Below are positions 9,215-17,711 of a DNA stretch of 64,000 bases, in pieces (the stretch's first letter is position 1; each line of letters starts with the position of its first letter). The position numbers and the translations under genes were made by a program. The stretch is from Myxococcus stipitatus DSM 14675. GTDB taxonomy: Bacteria; Myxococcota; Myxococcia; Myxococcales; Myxococcaceae. Below the pieces are notes generated by a model. The model ran no database searches, was not told the origin of the DNA, and saw nothing but the letters and a program-made list of their open reading frames with translations. The stretch spans positions 5,784,501 through 5,848,500 of the forward strand of contig NC_020126.1 in NCBI RefSeq assembly GCF_000331735.1. The letters are read 5' to 3'.

Positions 9215-10000
9215 ATGCCCAGTGCGCCCGCCTCGAACCCGAACGCCCCTGATCGCTGGTTTCCTTCCCGCAAGCCCCAACCGGACCCGCGCCTGCGCTT
9301 GTTCTGCCTGCCCTTCGCGGGCGGCAGCGCCTCCATCTACAGCAGCTGGCAAGGAGGTCTACCGCCAGGCGTCGAGCTGTGCGCGGTGCAGCTCCCCGGC
9401 CGTGAGCGGCGGTTGATGGAGAAGCCCATCGACAACCTGCCCGCGCTGGTGGACGCGCTCCTGCCCGTGCTCGCGCCGCTGCTCGACAGGCCCTTCGTCT
9501 TCTTCGGCTACAGCATGGGCTCGCGCATCTCCCTGGAGCTGACGCGGCGGCTGTACGCGCGCAACGGCCCGCTGCCCCGCGGACTGGTGCTGGCCGCGGC
9601 CGGCGCGCCGCGCACGGCGGACCGCAAGCCCATCCACCACCTGCCGCAGGACCAGTTCATCGAGGAGCTGCGGCGCTACGACGGAACGCCGGAGGAGATT
9701 CTCCAGCACCGCGAGCTGCTGGAGCTGCTGGTGCCCACCCTGCGCGCGGACTTCGCGCTGGCGTGGTGGGAGAACGGCCCGTCGCCCGTGAAGCTCGACG
9801 TCCCCATCTCCGTCATGGGCGGCACGGAGGACAAGCACGTCCCCCTCACCCGCCTGGAGACGTGGCGCGAGGAGACGCGCCACTCGGACTTCCGCATCCG
9901 CCACTTCGAGGGAGGCCACTTCTTCCTCCGCAAGCAGCAGGCGGCCCTGCTGACCGCGCTGGGCGAGGACCTCACGCGCTGGATGACGACGCCCGCCTGA
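9215..10000 (+). CDS. Type II thioesterase (external editing thioesterase for NRPS/PKS)
   Basis: The 261-residue alpha/beta hydrolase belongs to the GrsT/RifR-like group, which removes wrong acyl groups from carrier proteins. It has LFCLPFAGGSASIYSSW near residue 30, the PGRERR motif, the nucleophile serine in FFGYSMGS, an Asp in GGTEDKHVP and a catalytic His in EGGHFF. It is convergent with the phosphopantetheinyl transferase gene, with three bases between the stop codons. Both encode trans-acting accessory proteins for carrier-protein enzymes, so the pair probably serves synthetase clusters elsewhere in the genome. Confidence 0.92.
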   Translation: MPSAPASNPNAPDRWFPSRKPQPDPRLRLFCLPFAGGSASIYSSWQGGLPPGVELCAVQLPGRERRLMEKPIDNLPALVDALLPVLAPLLDRPFVFFGYSMGSRISLELTRRLYARNGPLPRGLVLAAAGAPRTADRKPIHHLPQDQFIEELRRYDGTPEEILQHRELLELLVPTLRADFALAWWENGPSPVKLDVPISVMGGTEDKHVPLTRLETWREETRHSDFRIRHFEGGHFFLRKQQAALLTALGEDLTRWMTTPA

Positions 10001-10003
10001 CGC

Positions 10004-10780
10004 TCAGGCCGCCTCGAAGCGAGGCGGCGCATCCGAGGCCAGCGGGACGGTGAACTGCCAGCGCACCCGGAAGGGGTTCGCCCGGGCGCTCCGCAGCGCC
10101 ACCGCCGCGTGGTGGCGCTCGGAGGGGCACCACTGCATGAAGCGCCACGTCTCCGGGGTGTCCGCCATCCGCGCATCGAACGAGATGCGCGGCTCCTGGC
10201 CTCGCGCCAGGTGGAAGGCGAACTGGTCCAGCGGCAGGGACAGCCCCGCGCCTCGCGCCTTGATGTAGGACTCCTTCAGCGTCCAGTACTCGAAGAAGCG
10301 GCTGCGCTGCTCGGCCACGGGGAGCGCCCTGAGCGCGGCGACCTCCGAGGCGGCGAAGAAGCTGTCGGCGATCTCCACCGTGTCCCCGGGGCGCTGGCTG
10401 TCCTCCACGTCCGCGCCCAGCTCCGCGTCCAGCCCCACCGCCACCAGCGCCATGCCGTCCGTGTGCGAGAGGTTGAAGCGCAGCCGCGCGCCCCACTCGC
10501 CCCGAATCTCCGGCCGCCCGTAGGCGTTGGTCGAGAAGCTCCAGGCCGTGGGTGCCACCGGCGCGTAGCGTGAGAGGGTCACTCGCACCAGCGCGTGACT
10601 CACCAGGTATTGCTTCTGGTGGCGCTCGAAGCGGAAGCGCTGCTTCTTCTCGCGCTCGCCTGAGTCCAGCAGGGCCCAGTAGGCGTCCAGGAGCTTCTGC
10701 TCGTGGATGCGCTCGGGCTCGACAATCCACACGTGGACTTCGTCCGGACGTAGCTCCAGTGGCTCGCCAACAGTCGACAT
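10004..10780 (-). CDS. Sfp-type 4'-phosphopantetheinyl transferase
   Basis: The enzyme loads the phosphopantetheine arm of coenzyme A onto carrier-protein serines. The protein has ~258 residues, with the conserved FNLSHTDGMALVAVG segment, the magnesium-binding region LGADVEDS and FFEYWTLKESYIKARG. The two-domain length is that of broad-range Sfp enzymes, not of the half-size AcpS. The Mg-binding motif reads GADVED where Sfp has GIDIEK. The ATG at 10780 is chosen over one at 10789 because of a better-placed GAGAG. Confidence 0.93.
   Translation of the reverse strand: MSTVGEPLELRPDEVHVWIVEPERIHEQKLLDAYWALLDSGEREKKQRFRFERHQKQYLVSHALVRVTLSRYAPVAPTAWSFSTNAYGRPEIRGEWGARLRFNLSHTDGMALVAVGLDAELGADVEDSQRPGDTVEIADSFFAASEVAALRALPVAEQRSRFFEYWTLKESYIKARGAGLSLPLDQFAFHLARGQEPRISFDARMADTPETWRFMQWCPSERHHAAVALRSARANPFRVRWQFTVPLASDAPPRFEAA
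10008..10028. terminator. Hairpin at convergent gene ends (thioesterase / phosphopantetheinyl transferase)
   Basis: Perfect 9-base arms (GCCGCCTCG / CGAGGCGGC) flank a 3-base loop. The hairpin overlaps the last codons of the minus-strand transferase gene and lies just after the thioesterase stop. There is no T-run, so terminator function is plausible but unproven. Confidence 0.4.
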
Positions 10781-10864
10781 GACTCTCATCTACCACGGCG
10801 AAGGGCGCCCCGCGTAGGCTGCGGGGTCCATCTCCGGCCCCGCGCCGGAAACGGGGGGAACAGC

Positions 10865-12079
10865 ATGGACTCGCACGCCGCGACGAAGAAGCTGGAGACG
10901 CTGCGAATGCTCATGGCCGGCCACACCGACACGAGCGAGGAGCGCCGCATCCTGAGCCTGTTGCGCGACGCCAGCGCCGCGGAGCTGAATTTTCTCTTGG
11001 CCAACATCGACCTCGAGTCCCTGCTGGGTGACCTGGACGATGGCATCTTCGGACCCGACCACCACACGCAGCTGTTGGACATGCTCTGCCGGGAGCGGGC
11101 CGCCCAGCTGGCCCTGCCCTTGCGCGCCAGCCTGGTCACGGCGCTCCAGCGAGGCGCCACCCCCGCCCTGGCGGAGCGGTGTGTCCGGGACTTGTTCCTG
11201 AGCCTCCACGGCCGCGAGCTGACCACCTTCAAGAACCTGCTCGACGCGGGCAACAACCACCAGGACCTGGAGAAGCTGCTCTTCGACGACGTGGATGACC
11301 CGGCGCTTCGCGAGGACATCCTCACGCACATCGGCCGCGAGGCGGAGGCCGCGCCGAGTGGCGAGAACAAGGTCCTCAGCGACATCGACGACACCTTCTA
11401 CGCCAACCTCAAGGACACCCGGTACCCGTCCAAGACGGTGTACCCCGGCGTGCTGGCCTTCTACGCCGAGCTGGACCGAGGCCCCGGCCTCATCCCGGGC
11501 CGCGAGGGAGACCTCACCTTCGTCACGGCCCGGCCCATGGACCCGCTGGGCGCCGTGGAGAACCTGACGTTCGACAGCCTGCGCAAGCACGGCGTGCCGC
11601 CCCACGTCGTGCTCTCCGGGAGCCTCACCCATCTGTTGGGCAACTCGCGCATCGCCGCGAAGAAGTTCGACAACTTCCAGCGCTACGCCCGCATCTTCCC
11701 CGAGTACGGCTTCGTCTTCGTGGGCGACAGCGGACAGGGGGACGTGGAGTTCGGCGACAAGATGCTCTCCGCGGCGCCCCACGGCGTCCACGCCGTCTTC
11801 ATCCACGACGTGGTGGAGACCCCCGAGGCCACGCGCCGCACGTGGCGGGACAAGCGCATCTACTTCTTCGACACGTACGTGGGCGCCGCGCTGGAGGCCT
11901 TCGCGCTGGGGCTCATCTCGCGCGATGGCCTGGCACGGGTGGCCATCGCGGCGCGAGAGTCGATGGAGGGCATCGCCTTCACGTCCGCGGCGCAGCGGGA
12001 TGCCCGCAAGGCGGAGCTCACCCGGGACCTGCAGCGCGCGGACGCGGTGACGTCGCCCTCGCCCGCGGCGGCGCACTGA
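10865..12079 (+). CDS. App1-like (DUF2183-type) phosphatidate phosphatase family protein
   Basis: The 404-residue protein has an all-helical N-terminal half of about 165 residues (LRMLMAGHTDTSEERRILSL onward) and a HAD-like C-terminal half. That half carries the catalytic Asp pair in VLSDIDDTFY, followed by FVTARP and FVGDSGQGDVE. These are the three motifs of the App1 family, whose yeast member dephosphorylates phosphatidate. The substrate here is unknown; phosphatidate or another phosphoester is possible. GGGGGG lies six bases upstream of the ATG. Confidence 0.8.
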   Translation: MDSHAATKKLETLRMLMAGHTDTSEERRILSLLRDASAAELNFLLANIDLESLLGDLDDGIFGPDHHTQLLDMLCRERAAQLALPLRASLVTALQRGATPALAERCVRDLFLSLHGRELTTFKNLLDAGNNHQDLEKLLFDDVDDPALREDILTHIGREAEAAPSGENKVLSDIDDTFYANLKDTRYPSKTVYPGVLAFYAELDRGPGLIPGREGDLTFVTARPMDPLGAVENLTFDSLRKHGVPPHVVLSGSLTHLLGNSRIAAKKFDNFQRYARIFPEYGFVFVGDSGQGDVEFGDKMLSAAPHGVHAVFIHDVVETPEATRRTWRDKRIYFFDTYVGAALEAFALGLISRDGLARVAIAARESMEGIAFTSAAQRDARKAELTRDLQRADAVTSPSPAAAH

Positions 12080-12318: not shown

Positions 12319-13569
12319 ATGGAGCTCTTTCCCATCCACCTGCTGTTCATCGTCGTGTTGATGAACCGCTACATCCTCGGTCCGTTCCTGCGGCGCCTGC
12401 GCGGACGCGACATCGACCAGGCCGACGACACCTACCAGCCGCGCGTCGCCATCGTCATCCCCCTCTTCAACGAGGGCAAGGGCATCTACCACGCGGTGCG
12501 CAGCCTGCTGGAGCAGGACTATCCCAGCCACCTGCTTCAAATCGTGGTGGTGGACGACTGCTCCAACGACGACAGCTACGCGTGGGCGCAGAAGGCCGCG
12601 GAGGGCACGCCCAACGTCCTGGTGATGCGCAACCCCGAGAACATGGGCAAGCGCAAGGGCATCAACCGGGGCGTCAAGGCCGCGGTCGACGCGGAGATCA
12701 TCGTCTCGGTGGACTCGGACGTCATCGTGGACCGGTCCGCCGTGCGCAACCTGGTGCGGCGCTTCGTCAGCCCGCGCATCGCCGCCGTGGGCGGTCGCAC
12801 CTTCGTGACCAACCGCCACCAGAACTGGCTGACCCGGATGGTGGAGATCAAGTTCCACTTCGCCCAGCAGTGGCTCAAGGACCTGGAGCGCAGCTTCCGT
12901 CAGGTGATGTGCCTGTCGGGCTGTCTCACCGCGTACCGCCGCCATGTGCTGCTGGAGCTGGAGCCCATCCTGGAGGCGCGCGCCATCGCCGGGGTGCCCA
13001 TCAAGTACGGCGAGGACCGCTTCCTGACGCGGCAGATCGTCAAGCACGACTACGAAACGGTCTACACGCTCGACGCGTTCTGCTTCACCGCCGCGCCCGC
13101 GACCCTCGCGGGCTACTTCTCTCAACAGCTCCGGTGGCGGCGCTCCAACCTGGTGGACCTGTTCGGTGGCCTGTCCCACGCGTGGCGACTGCACCCGGTG
13201 GTGACCGTCCACTACGTGTCCCAATTGGCGCTGCTGCTCGCCTACCCCGTGGTCATCGTCCACAACGTCCTCACCGGGGAGTTCCTGGACATCCTCTCGT
13301 TTCACTTCCTGGTCATCGGACTGCTGGGAATCATCTACCGGCTGGAGACGCGGCACCTGCCCGAGGACCGGCGTGTGCATGGTGCGTGCTTCCTGCCCAT
13401 GGCGCTGCTGATGCCCGTGACGTACGCGCTCTTCACGCCGCTGGCCCTGCTGACGCTGGACTCGGGGAGCTGGGAGACCCGCGGCAGCCCCAGCGCGGCG
13501 AAGGCGCCCTCCGTGGCTGGCGACGGCAGCCAGCTTCCGCCCAATCCCGCCGGTGAGAGCGCCCCATGA
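12319..13569 (+). CDS. Processive family 2 glycosyltransferase (NodC/hyaluronan-synthase type)
   Basis: The 416-residue membrane enzyme starts with a hydrophobic segment (FPIHLLFIVVLMNRYIL). Its GT-A domain carries IVIPLFNEGKG, VVDDCSNDD and VDSDVIVD. The acceptor motif GEDRFLTRQI and the QQLRWRRS motif mark processive synthases such as NodC, HasA and BcsA. About three membrane segments follow. The ATG at 12319 is preferred (GGGGGGC upstream); an in-frame ATG at 12280 is possible. The stop overlaps the next start (ATGA). Enzymes of this class couple polymerisation to passage through the inner membrane, so it should make a beta-linked polysaccharide; the sugar is unknown. Confidence 0.88.
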   Translation: MELFPIHLLFIVVLMNRYILGPFLRRLRGRDIDQADDTYQPRVAIVIPLFNEGKGIYHAVRSLLEQDYPSHLLQIVVVDDCSNDDSYAWAQKAAEGTPNVLVMRNPENMGKRKGINRGVKAAVDAEIIVSVDSDVIVDRSAVRNLVRRFVSPRIAAVGGRTFVTNRHQNWLTRMVEIKFHFAQQWLKDLERSFRQVMCLSGCLTAYRRHVLLELEPILEARAIAGVPIKYGEDRFLTRQIVKHDYETVYTLDAFCFTAAPATLAGYFSQQLRWRRSNLVDLFGGLSHAWRLHPVVTVHYVSQLALLLAYPVVIVHNVLTGEFLDILSFHFLVIGLLGIIYRLETRHLPEDRRVHGACFLPMALLMPVTYALFTPLALLTLDSGSWETRGSPSAAKAPSVAGDGSQLPPNPAGESAP

Positions 13570-14666
13570 ACCAACGCGTCGCGAACCGCATCAACTCGGC
13601 CGCCGTCTCCGTGTACAAGCTCATGGGCTCGGTGCTGCTGGGCCTCATCCTCCTGGCGCTGGTGTCCTTCCTGTCGGTCCAGGGCTTCTTCCTCCTGAGC
13701 CGGAGCTGGGCCACGCCCGCGGTGATTTCACCCACGGACCCGCACATCCTCACGCTCAACACGCAGGTCGCCGCGCAGACCTCCTCCCGGGACCATGTGC
13801 TCGCCGAGCGTCGCACGCTCGAGAACCAGTTGCTGGACGCGGAGCGCACCGCCTCCGCCGAGCGCGCCTTCCAGCAGCGCTTCCTGGTCGCCTTGAGCGA
13901 TGAGCGCGACTCCAAGAGCCGCACCGCGAAGCGGCTGACATCGCTGCGCCTCGAGTACAACCGCGCCCGCGACGAGATCCTCAAGTCGAACCGCGCCTAC
14001 GCGGGGCTCTCCCGCGCGCGCACGGATGCGATGTACGGCGCGAAGCTGCTGCAACAAGAGGACAAGCTCACGCTGAACCACCACCTGGCCCAGCTCGCGC
14101 AGAGCAACCTGTCGCTGGCGCAGACCACCGTGGACCTGGAGACGCGGACGGAGAACCTCCATCGGGAGATCGCCGGCCTCACGGCGGTGCGCGACCGGGT
14201 GGGCAAGGACGGCGTCCCCGAGGGCATCACCTCGGATGTCCTGTTGCTGGAGCGGGAGTACACGCACTCGGTCCTGGAGCAGGCTCGCGCGGAGGCGACC
14301 CTTCGGAGTCTGCAGCAGGACCTGAAGGCCCTGGAGGATGTGGCGCAGCGCTACGAGACGCTCATCGCGTCGCTGCGTGCCTCGCCGTACCTGCGCGCCA
14401 TCGAGAAGGACCTGACCGTGGCCTTCGTTCCCTACGAGAACCTGAACAACGCGGGGGCCGGGACGCCGCTCTTCGCGTGTGCCGCGAAGGTCGTCTGGTG
14501 CCGGGAGGTCGGCGTCGTGGGCCAGGTGCTGGAGGGCGAGGTGTCCATCAAGCACCCCATCCGCCAGCACATGCTGCGCGGGGTGATGGTGGAGCTGAAG
14601 CTCACGGACTCCACGTCGGCACGCGAGGACCTGCTGCACCTGGGCCGTGCGCCCTTGTTCCTGTGA
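13566..14666 (+). CDS. Membrane-anchored coiled-coil adaptor, HlyD/Alg44-like
   Basis: The 366-residue protein has one N-terminal transmembrane segment near residues 19-42 and a long coiled coil from about residue 75 to 270. The C-terminal region is beta-rich (PLFACAAKVVWCREVGVVG then VLEGEVSIKHPI), resembling the barrel-sandwich end of periplasmic adaptors. Its start overlaps the synthase stop by four bases. In this position it would link the inner-membrane synthase to an outer-membrane exit, as Alg44 or HlyD-type adaptors do. This role is inferred from architecture and operon order; there is no clear family signature. Confidence 0.65.
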   Translation: MNQRVANRINSAAVSVYKLMGSVLLGLILLALVSFLSVQGFFLLSRSWATPAVISPTDPHILTLNTQVAAQTSSRDHVLAERRTLENQLLDAERTASAERAFQQRFLVALSDERDSKSRTAKRLTSLRLEYNRARDEILKSNRAYAGLSRARTDAMYGAKLLQQEDKLTLNHHLAQLAQSNLSLAQTTVDLETRTENLHREIAGLTAVRDRVGKDGVPEGITSDVLLLEREYTHSVLEQARAEATLRSLQQDLKALEDVAQRYETLIASLRASPYLRAIEKDLTVAFVPYENLNNAGAGTPLFACAAKVVWCREVGVVGQVLEGEVSIKHPIRQHMLRGVMVELKLTDSTSAREDLLHLGRAPLFL

Positions 14667-14674
14667 GGAGCCTC

Positions 14675-15787
14675 ATGCGGAAGACTCTCACCTGCGGCGC
14701 GCTCCTGTGCTTCGCCGTGCGAACACCGTCGGCCCTCGCGGCCAGCCCCGACGCCCAGTTGGAGGAGCGCGCGGAGGGCTACTGCGAGTGGGTCCGGGGC
14801 GTCGGAGACGCGGAGGCCGCGCTGGAGCTGGCCCCGGAGGTGTTCGGCAGCTTCGGCGTGGTGAACACCGGGCAGGCCGAGGGCGGCACGGACCTGGGCA
14901 AGCCGAAGCCTCGCGTCACCGCGGGCGTGAGCTACGACGTCGTCGGGCTGTATCGAGGCCGGGTGATTCACCGCCGCGCCGCCGCCGAGTGTCGCCGGCA
15001 GCAGGCGCTCTCCTCGCTCCAGGCGGCCCTGAGACAGGGCTCGGGGCTCGGAGAAGCGTCCGCGCTGGAGGCGCGGGCCCGCGTGCTCGAGGAGGCCCTG
15101 CCCCGAGCGGAGGCGCTCGTCACGGCCCTGCGCTCCGACCTTCGCGAGGGCCGCGCCACGCTGGAGGAGCTCAACGCGGTGCAGGTGCGGCTGGACAACC
15201 TCCGCTCGCTCAGCACCGACACCGCCATGGCGCGGGAGCGGCTGGCCGCGCAGCCGGACCTTCCGCGAGGCCAGCGGCTCGAGTCGCTGCTGGAGGAGTT
15301 CCGCGCGGCGGATGACGCCGTGGAGGCCGCGTCCGCGGGCCTGCGTCGCGCGAAGGGCTGGGAGCTGAGCCTGCGCGGCGGCTACGACGAGGTCTTCGAC
15401 CTGGACCAGGACGTCCCGCTCTTCGGGCAGGTCATGCTGACGTATGACCTGGGCCACCTCTGGCAGGGAAAGGCCAACGCCCGGGCGAGAGAGGGGCGCC
15501 GCCGCGCGACGAAGAATGACGTGGGTGGCATGGACCAGCAGATCTCCGAGCTGCTCACGGAGCTGCGCTCGCGGCATCGGACGGAGGAGGCTCGGCTGCG
15601 CGAGGTGTCCGCGCTCGTGACGGACCTGGAGGGGCAGCTTCGCGAGGTCGAAGCGCTCCAGACTCGCGAGGTCCGCCGGTTCAGGGACTATCTGCTCCTG
15701 GAGCTGGCGCGGCTGCGCGCCGAGCAGGCCTATCTGACGGCCCACGTGGAGTCGCTCGCTTCGCTCCTCGGGCCCGCGGCTCCGTGA
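14675..15787 (+). CDS. Exported coiled-coil protein, possibly TolC-like outer-membrane component
   Basis: The 370-residue protein has a signal peptide (MRKTLTCGALLCFAV, cleavage near SALAA) and long helical, coiled-coil-prone stretches around residues 95-230 and 285-365. Between them is a short beta-rich segment (WELSLRGGYDEVFD and LFGQVMLTYDLGHLWQG). Two helical arms around a beta-strand hairpin recall half of a TolC-type repeat, but no definite family is recognised. GAGGAG lies four bases before the ATG. It sits third in the operon, the expected place for an outer-membrane exit or periplasmic scaffold of the polymer made by the synthase. Confidence 0.6.
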   Translation: MRKTLTCGALLCFAVRTPSALAASPDAQLEERAEGYCEWVRGVGDAEAALELAPEVFGSFGVVNTGQAEGGTDLGKPKPRVTAGVSYDVVGLYRGRVIHRRAAAECRRQQALSSLQAALRQGSGLGEASALEARARVLEEALPRAEALVTALRSDLREGRATLEELNAVQVRLDNLRSLSTDTAMARERLAAQPDLPRGQRLESLLEEFRAADDAVEAASAGLRRAKGWELSLRGGYDEVFDLDQDVPLFGQVMLTYDLGHLWQGKANARAREGRRRATKNDVGGMDQQISELLTELRSRHRTEEARLREVSALVTDLEGQLREVEALQTREVRRFRDYLLLELARLRAEQAYLTAHVESLASLLGPAAP

Positions 15788-16488
15788 GGTTCCTCCTCCG
15801 GGGTGTTCCCTGGAGGGTGCTCGCCGCCTGCCTGGGCGGATGGGGTTGTCCTCGCGCCACGCCTCCCGAGGCGCCGAAGGCCGCTGTGCAACGGGGCAAG
15901 ACCTCCATGACAGCACTCGACGTGGTGCCCCTGGCGCGAATGAAGGTGACGCAAGGGACGTTGGACGCGGAGCCCCATGGGTGGCTCGTCGTGCGGACCG
16001 CCCGGATGCGGGCCGTCGTTCCTGGGCTGGAGGCGTCTCGAGCGACGCTTCGCTTCAAGCTGTCAGGTCCATCCACCGAGCAACGCCCCTTGGAATCCGG
16101 CGAGCTGCGACAGCAAGTCGGCCTCAAGCTCCGAGCCCTGGATGGCTGCAACGTGCTGTATGTGATGTGGCGAATCGCTCCCAAGCCCGGCGTGGTCGTC
16201 AACTACAAGCGAAACCCAGACATGCATCACAGCCATGACTGTGGAAACGCGGGCTACACCACGGTCCGCCCTTCCGTGCGTCACACGGCGAGGACCCTGG
16301 CCCCCTCGCTCGAGACGGAGCACACCCTGCGCGCGCACCTGGATGCGGGAACGCTGCGCGTCTGGGCGGATGACCTCCTGGTCTGGGAAGGGACGCTCCC
16401 CTCGGAGGCGCTCGAGCTCGAGGGCCCCGTGGGGCTGCGCTCGGACAACGTGCAGCTGAGCTTGCAGCTCGCCGTGCCCCCTAGTTGA
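15784..16488 (+). CDS. Putative lipoprotein with a concanavalin-like beta-sandwich
   Basis: The 234-residue protein starts with GTG overlapping the preceding stop (GTGA), so it is the fourth gene of the synthase operon. The N-terminus is hydrophobic with a possible lipobox (LAAC near residue 16). The C-terminal half ends in a DLLVWEG, GPVGLRSDNVQLS pattern, typical of LamG/DUF1080-like sugar-binding sandwiches. It may bind or process the exported polymer at the cell surface. Catalytic residues are not identifiable. The 3' end overlaps the convergent mannosyltransferase gene by eight bases. Confidence 0.6.
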   Translation: MRFLLRGVPWRVLAACLGGWGCPRATPPEAPKAAVQRGKTSMTALDVVPLARMKVTQGTLDAEPHGWLVVRTARMRAVVPGLEASRATLRFKLSGPSTEQRPLESGELRQQVGLKLRALDGCNVLYVMWRIAPKPGVVVNYKRNPDMHHSHDCGNAGYTTVRPSVRHTARTLAPSLETEHTLRAHLDAGTLRVWADDLLVWEGTLPSEALELEGPVGLRSDNVQLSLQLAVPPS

Positions 16489-17626
16489 TGGGGTACGCGT
16501 GGACGAAGAGGAAGACGAGCATGCCCTGGAAGAGCGCCATGCCCAGCACCACGGGGCCTCGCAGCGCGGGGTGCCGGCTGAGCCAGGCGCCCAGGGGAAG
16601 GAACGCGGGCCAGGCGGACGCACTGTAGCGCCCGAGCCCCACCACCCCCACGCTCCACATCACGAGCATCAAGGGTATCGCGAAGGCCGCCAGCGTCCAC
16701 CAGCGGCGGTGCCTCGCCAGCAGCAGCGCGCCCACGCCTGGGATGAAGGACGTCACCACGTAGAGGCTCACCTCCGGCCCCCACTTACCGTTCCACCAGC
16801 TCCGCAATCCATCCCAGGCCCCCGCCCATCCACTCCCACGCACCTTCCACCAGACCTGAGGATCTCCGAACGTCCGCCACAGGAAGACGAAGTAGAGCGA
16901 GGTCATCACCCCGGGCAGCGCCAGCGCGAGCAGGTCCCGATGGAACCACGCCCTCCACCCACCTCCGCGCGAGCGAAGCTGCTGGAAGAGCAAGCCCAGC
17001 CCCGCCACCAGCGACAGGTGGCGCGCCAGCCCTCCGAATCCCAAGGCCAGTGCCGCCCACCACGGACGGCCACTCAGGCTCAGTGAGACGGCGAGCGCCG
17101 TGAAGAACACCATCCACGATTCGGGGTAGCCCGCGGACTGGAAGAACACGAAGGGATAGGCCGTGAAGAGCAGCAGCGAGACCCGTGCCACCTCCTCCCC
17201 TTCCAAGGCGCGGAACAGCCGATACAGCACGAGGAGCGACAGCAACCCGCCCACGTTCGCCACGAGCACCAGCGACACCGGGATGCCAATACCCGTGATC
17301 GCGCTCAGGAGCTTCGCCGTCAGCGGCAGGAACGGAAAGAAGTTGGTGGCCTCGGGGCGCGCATAGCCTTGTCGGGCAATCTCCGCGTACCAGCCGCAGT
17401 CCCACCGGCAGAACGCATCCAGCCCCGCGAGCCCCTCTTGGGTGAACGGCGCGCGATGCAGCCGGGGGTCGAACCGCAGCGAGACCCGCGCGAGGAGGAA
17501 CAGCGCCAGCCGGCTGAAGATGAAGAGTCCCACCGGAAAGGACAGCTCCGCGGCGAGGGCGCGCAGGCGGGTCTTCCAGGTGGCGGAGGGCCGAGCCTCT
17601 TCCGAGACCAGGACTTCGGTGGACAT
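16481..17626 (-). CDS. Multi-pass membrane mannosyltransferase, PIG-V-like
   Basis: The 381-residue protein has about nine membrane segments. After the first one comes the extracytoplasmic motif FCRWDCGWYAEIARQGY, the W-D pair typical of PIG-V-type GT-C mannosyltransferases that use polyprenyl-phosphate sugars. NFFPFLP and YPESWMVFF loops further support the family. It probably transfers a hexose to a lipid or glycan on the outer face of the inner membrane. The ATG at 17626 is used; a TTG eight codons upstream is possible. It is convergent with the polysaccharide operon but could act on related products. Confidence 0.8.
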   Translation of the reverse strand: MSTEVLVSEEARPSATWKTRLRALAAELSFPVGLFIFSRLALFLLARVSLRFDPRLHRAPFTQEGLAGLDAFCRWDCGWYAEIARQGYARPEATNFFPFLPLTAKLLSAITGIGIPVSLVLVANVGGLLSLLVLYRLFRALEGEEVARVSLLLFTAYPFVFFQSAGYPESWMVFFTALAVSLSLSGRPWWAALALGFGGLARHLSLVAGLGLLFQQLRSRGGGWRAWFHRDLLALALPGVMTSLYFVFLWRTFGDPQVWWKVRGSGWAGAWDGLRSWWNGKWGPEVSLYVVTSFIPGVGALLLARHRRWWTLAAFAIPLMLVMWSVGVVGLGRYSASAWPAFLPLGAWLSRHPALRGPVVLGMALFQGMLVFLFVHAYPIN

Positions 17627-17711
17627 GTGGCGGACGGCCCCACGGTTCAAGAGGGGCCACCACCCTATCCCACCGTCGGCCCTCGCGCAGCGACTGGCGC
17701 GAGCAGGCCGC

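Follow-up and report, generated by a model that had tools for sequence, protein, structure and literature searches.

A probable synthase-dependent polysaccharide secretion operon with a TolC-like exit in Myxococcus stipitatus

Four tightly packed genes of Myxococcus stipitatus DSM 14675, here called P1 to P4 [Table 1], probably form a synthase-dependent polysaccharide secretion operon with a TolC-like exit. They lie in a 64,000-nucleotide stretch of contig NC_020126.1 (positions 5,784,501 to 5,848,500), hereafter the window, in which a preliminary description had placed four open reading frames at 12319-16488 with junctions of ATGA, 8 bases and GTGA, all of which we found to be as described. 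That description read the genes, in order, as synthase, periplasmic bridge, outer-membrane exit and sugar-binding protein, an order of roles now supported by the OEP match of P3, the EmrA match of P2 and the CBM66-like match of P4; the export of a polysaccharide by their products is something that we infer. Its further suggestion that the operon may be new holds in part: the enzyme is not new, P1 being a probable orthologue of FbfA of Stigmatella aurantiaca, whereas the export module that would explain FbfA appears to be.

Table 1. Genes of the candidate secretion operon and of its surroundings (positions are those of the window).
Feature	Location	Strand or orientation	Description
P1	12319..13569	+	416 aa; GT2 processive-type synthase, probable FbfA orthologue
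P2	13566..14666	+	366 aa; predicted inner-membrane-anchored periplasmic adaptor; overlaps P1 by 4 bases (ATGA)
P3	14675..15787	+	370 aa; exported, predicted TolC/OEP-family outer-membrane channel protein; 8-base gap after P2
P4	15784..16488	+	234 aa; exported beta-sandwich protein, likely glycan-binding; GTGA overlap with P3
APP1-type phosphatidate phosphatase domain protein	10865-12079		upstream of P1; conserved in many relatives
Thioesterase-like and 4'-phosphopantetheinyl-transferase-like genes	9215-10789	convergent	assigned by eye; conserved upstream of the operon
PIG-V-like mannosyltransferase gene	16481-17650	convergent with P4	8-base overlap with the end of P4
FbfB-type gene	loci L038, L040, L041, L047, L049-L053, L055, L057	opposite strand to P1	

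By its sequence, P1 is a predicted processive-type GT2 synthase of the hyaluronan synthase, chitin synthase and NodC type. It matches the Pfam family Glyco_tranf_2_3 (2.1e-30), NCBIfam likewise places it in GT2, and the best PDB matches of the family profile are hyaluronan synthase 8smm (2.8e-30) and 7sp7 (1e-22). The processive-synthase motifs pointed out in the preliminary description (GEDRFLT, QQLRW) are present, and an alignment of 27 orthologues retains every signature, with VDD (residues 78-80), SVDSD (130-134), YGEDRFLTR (230-238) and QQ.RW (269-273) invariant in all of them. Hydrophobic segments at residues 3-21, 295-313, 322-340 and 362-380 are suggestive of membrane segments on both sides of the catalytic domain, one at the N-terminus and three or more at the C-terminus. 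Pfam searches of P1, and of P2 across 30 members, gave no match to a PilZ domain.

The single-chain AlphaFold2 model of P2 (pLDDT 86) consists of a membrane helix (residues 20-38), three long helices that make up a coiled coil (about 59-271) and, at the C-terminus, a beta domain (about 284-359). A layout of the HlyD/EmrA adaptor kind, with transmembrane segment, coiled-coil hairpin and beta domain, is supported for the predicted structure by Foldseek, whose best PDB fold match was EmrA (4tko; E 1.8e-5, probability 1.00), with a TM-score that is low (0.18-0.20), as with long flexible coiled coils, and with unrelated coiled coils ranking close behind; a second structural comparison (VIA-align) was swamped by unrelated coiled coils. 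At residues 152-165, where the helix is predicted to turn, R152...M..A.LL..E repeats the spacing seen in EmrA as R145...L..A.LI..E, a tip pattern that was seen post hoc, occurs in 0.3% of shuffled coiled coils and is strictly fitted by 17 of 30 members. Pfam and NCBIfam gave no convincing family, and no HlyD or lipoyl match, across 30 members of P2, in agreement with the earlier view that it belongs to no named sequence family. Comparisons by hhalign of the P2 profile with EmrA, BgsB and the HlyD proteins of its own genome, made on small and shallow alignments, were not significant, and PDB sequence searches with the profiles of P2, P3 and P4 returned nothing meaningful. The membrane-anchored coiled-coil adaptor of the preliminary description has its layout and the EmrA fold match in its favor and the want of a HlyD profile match against it.

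P4, likewise predicted as a single chain, was modeled as a beta-sandwich (pLDDT 87.5), for which Foldseek returned CBM66 as the best fold match (4b1m; E 6.5e-7, TM 0.72 by target), followed by levanases, laminarinases and galectins. On this model, the protein is likely a glycan-binding, ConA-like beta-sandwich; no Pfam family matched it, and a GH16 catalytic motif was not seen by eye. Of the small beta-sandwich lipoprotein proposed earlier, the sandwich stands, but lipoprotein as a family property had to be rejected, the lipobox-like cysteine being missing in most orthologues.

These features bear on another way of reading the locus, according to which a NodC-like P1 would make short oligosaccharides or a glycolipid and P2 and P3 would be an efflux-type pump exporting a small glycan, perhaps a developmental signal. 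NodC (TIGR04242) is the best NCBIfam model of P1, and the fold closest to P2 is that of an efflux adaptor, EmrA. With 165 bits, however, P1 falls far short of the 550-bit NodC cut-off, and P1 as NodC was rejected; the P1 profile fits hyaluronan synthases best, neither an acyltransferase nor an inner-membrane pump was found in the conserved gene set, and P4 resembles a polymer-binding domain. We consider a small-glycan pump unlikely.

P3, the putative exit, is a protein of the TolC/OEP family as judged by its match to Pfam OEP (PF02321), which reaches 28.3 bits against a gathering cut-off of 22, the best-scoring stretch (residues 208-356) covering one repeat. An OEP match at E<=0.01 was found in 10 of 27 P3 members, and the N-terminus is a signal-peptide-like segment; profile-profile comparison of P3 with TolC and with the OEPs of its own genome gave no significant match. 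Since the OEP cut-off is passed, the earlier statement that P3 fits no family that could be named was wrong.

Adaptors from about 345 aa upward lie next to a P3-type gene. Seven short adaptors of Polyangia-type genomes (about 265-282 aa; loci L096-L099, L102, L103 and L173) have no TolC-like neighbor and mostly lie beside a P1-like synthase; five such genomes hold both a short adaptor and a long one, the latter next to P3 and P4, and two more hold a short one only. What the short adaptors lack corresponds roughly to residues 113-229 of the window protein, that is, to the distal coiled coil. Such a distribution is to be expected if P2 bears a TolC-reaching hairpin, and the long and short forms amount to a natural experiment on how adaptors reach TolC.

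P2, P3 and P4 were each used separately to search 145 genomes of the order and then 195 Myxococcota genomes. In the latter, each matched 61 genomes, 60 of which were common to all three, with adjacent coordinates. The neighborhood of P1 was checked in 29 fetched loci (L031-L059): P1 adjoins P2 in all 29 and lies upstream of it in 28, and the 4-base overlap of the two genes is kept in 25. In several Polyangia-type genomes P1 is divergent from a P2-P3-P4 operon, and in Polyangia loci beyond the 29 it is divergent or adjacent. The preliminary description had staked its operon on the glycosyltransferase showing processive-synthase signatures, all of which it has, and on the other three genes being conserved next to it in related genomes, and conserved beside it they are.

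This distribution weighs against P2 and P3 being envelope-spanning structural proteins that accompany a real synthase, the polymer of which would stay in the cell wall or leave the cell otherwise. Two points speak for such a role: sequence profiles give P2 no adaptor support, and certain Polyangia combine a P1-like synthase with a short adaptor in the absence of a TolC-like gene. P3, on the other hand, scores above the OEP cut-off, the segment that the short adaptors lack is exactly the one that would reach TolC, and the genes are tightly co-conserved, within 60 genomes and also in a second phylum; a structural role thus seems to us quite improbable. The four-gene arrangement is not due to chance: that the genes should be fortuitous neighbors, or share regulation only, has nothing in its favor among our results and is barely credible given that their order and tight junctions are kept across the order Myxococcales and that the set recurs, rearranged, in Betaproteobacteria.

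Outside the Myxococcales, three Ralstonia loci combine genes for a UDP-sugar dehydrogenase, a GT2 enzyme, a TolC-like protein, an adaptor and a 249-aa protein, and Paraburkholderia PGU19 has the same five gene types in a different order. The small exported protein of these betaproteobacterial operons (L093, 8047-8796; L105, 11494-12171) carries a GH16-lichenase-like ExDxE motif, assigned by eye; Pfam and PDB searches with the Ralstonia protein found nothing. In a plasmid collection, the sole adaptor homolog found shares its record with the top-scoring glycosyltransferase among the matches listed, and a myxobacterial contig (L060, 680-6006) brings together distant adaptor-like and TolC-like genes, a different GT2 gene, a UDP-sugar dehydrogenase gene and a polysaccharide-deacetylase-like gene. 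These associations suggest that adaptor and TolC-like genes travel with glycan synthases.

In 11 of the mapped loci, a galactose-oxidase/GlxA-like gene of the FbfB type lies upstream of P1 and divergent from it [Table 1]. One of these, L050, encodes a synthase to which P1 is 77% identical, with the oxidase-like gene divergent beside it. We take the L050 genome to be, probably, that of S. aurantiaca DW4/3-1, which the gene arrangement fits; it encodes three oxidases of this kind, of which the one adjacent to P1 is found at 4.83 Mb, a position fitting the tag STAUR_4011. The product of this gene aligns with Streptomyces GlxA (4unm; 1.8e-48), also at the Cys, Tyr, Tyr-His and His of the copper site. 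Both fbfA and fbfB were reportedly the subject of work by Silakowski in 1996 and 1998. Fruiting of S. aurantiaca requires fbfA, whose product is chitin-synthase-like (Silakowski 1996, cited in PMC6997564), and fbfB (STAUR_4011) is divergent beside a glycosyltransferase gene and abolishes fruiting when mutated (PMC3543389). The synteny of L050 with its divergent fbfB-like gene and these published descriptions make P1 probably the FbfA ortholog. P1 has in common with the S. aurantiaca pair its homology to NodC and chitin synthase and, in relatives, the divergent galactose-oxidase neighbor, and differs in that no fbfB-like gene adjoins it in the window genome. Corallococcus and the M. xanthus locus likewise have none beside P1, so that the oxidase is not an obligatory part. 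In the literature searched, the three export genes downstream of the synthase are mentioned nowhere, FbfA is not connected with any exporter, and nothing joins galactose oxidase, a myxobacterial glycosyltransferase, the fruiting body and TolC. Three genomes of one genus (g8; G081-G083) that lack P2 are also without any such oxidase.

Alg8-Alg44-AlgE, BcsABC and PgaABCD are synthase-dependent systems, the logic of which is shared by the locus studied here; they differ from it in that we found here no PilZ domain, TPR scaffold or porin-type beta-barrel gene, the exit being of the predicted TolC type. Closer in composition is the XcsA-XcsB-TolC route of cellulose secretion proposed in cyanobacteria (PMC12430437, citing Maeda 2018), which in that account likewise comprises a synthase, a HlyD-like adaptor and a TolC-like channel. 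In T. vulcanus, the organism for which it was proposed, the genes lie scattered and the synthase carries PilZ. Here, by contrast, a single operon encodes a P1 without PilZ and an adaptor, P2, in which no HlyD domain is recognizable, as well as the additional sandwich protein P4. The rhizobial mixed-linkage glucan operon also has a GT2 synthase gene, bgsA, adjoining that of a HlyD-type protein, BgsB, with which P2 gave no significant alignment; BgsA is activated by c-di-GMP at its C-terminus, and the two-gene operon includes no TolC gene (PMC9495663). The CslA-GlxA cellulose synthase complex of Streptomyces, in which a GT2 synthase tied to development has a GlxA-type oxidase as neighbor (PMC11022532), offers by analogy a striking parallel to P1 and the GlxA-like oxidase, but it belongs to a Gram-positive organism without an outer-membrane exit, and P1 of the window has no adjacent oxidase.

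Under the secretion reading that we favor, P1 would polymerize nucleotide sugars in the cytoplasm and pass the chain, as it grows, through a membrane channel that P1 itself forms. P2, with its inner-membrane anchor, would dock on P1 and, by way of its long coiled coil, on P3, so that the two would provide an uninterrupted route through the periplasm and the outer membrane; P4 may bind the chain in the periplasm or on the cell surface. In many relatives, the divergent copper radical oxidase of the GlxA/FbfB type might modify the polymer or help to deposit it. Multicellular development is the probable setting in which the polymer serves; its role in this species we infer, as we do the docking, the channel path and the polymer itself. 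More tentatively, and with rather less confidence than in secretion as such, we propose as a possibility that the module stands for a distinct secretion class, composed of a hyaluronan-synthase-like enzyme, an adaptor in which no lipoyl domain is recognizable, a TolC-type exit of its own and, in the ancestral state, a GlxA-type copper oxidase. In it, the length of the adaptor coiled coil would decide on coupling to TolC, and it would make the fruiting-body polymer behind the fbfA phenotype of 1996, in lineages from which the synthase route was reported to be missing.

For almost 30 years no mechanism has gone with the developmental role of FbfA. A conserved four-gene module headed by FbfA offers a direct and testable one, namely that fruiting myxobacteria export an additional polymer. 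Synthase, adaptor and TolC are here united in one operon, unlike in the proposed cyanobacterial system. M. xanthus carries all four genes, as found in strain AM003 (L084), despite a 2020 survey of this species in which a synthase-dependent pathway was reported absent (PMC7484181).

Around the operon, the PIG-V-like gene is linked to it in close relatives only, and the APP1-type protein encoded upstream of P1 shows a weak match, below the cut-off, to the T6SS effector Tse3 (N-terminal domain). An adaptor of Myxococcus type, 75% identical, was also encountered in a record named Comamonas sp. KCTC 72670 (L080; BNCN01000016.1), the genome of which looks mislabeled or contaminated.
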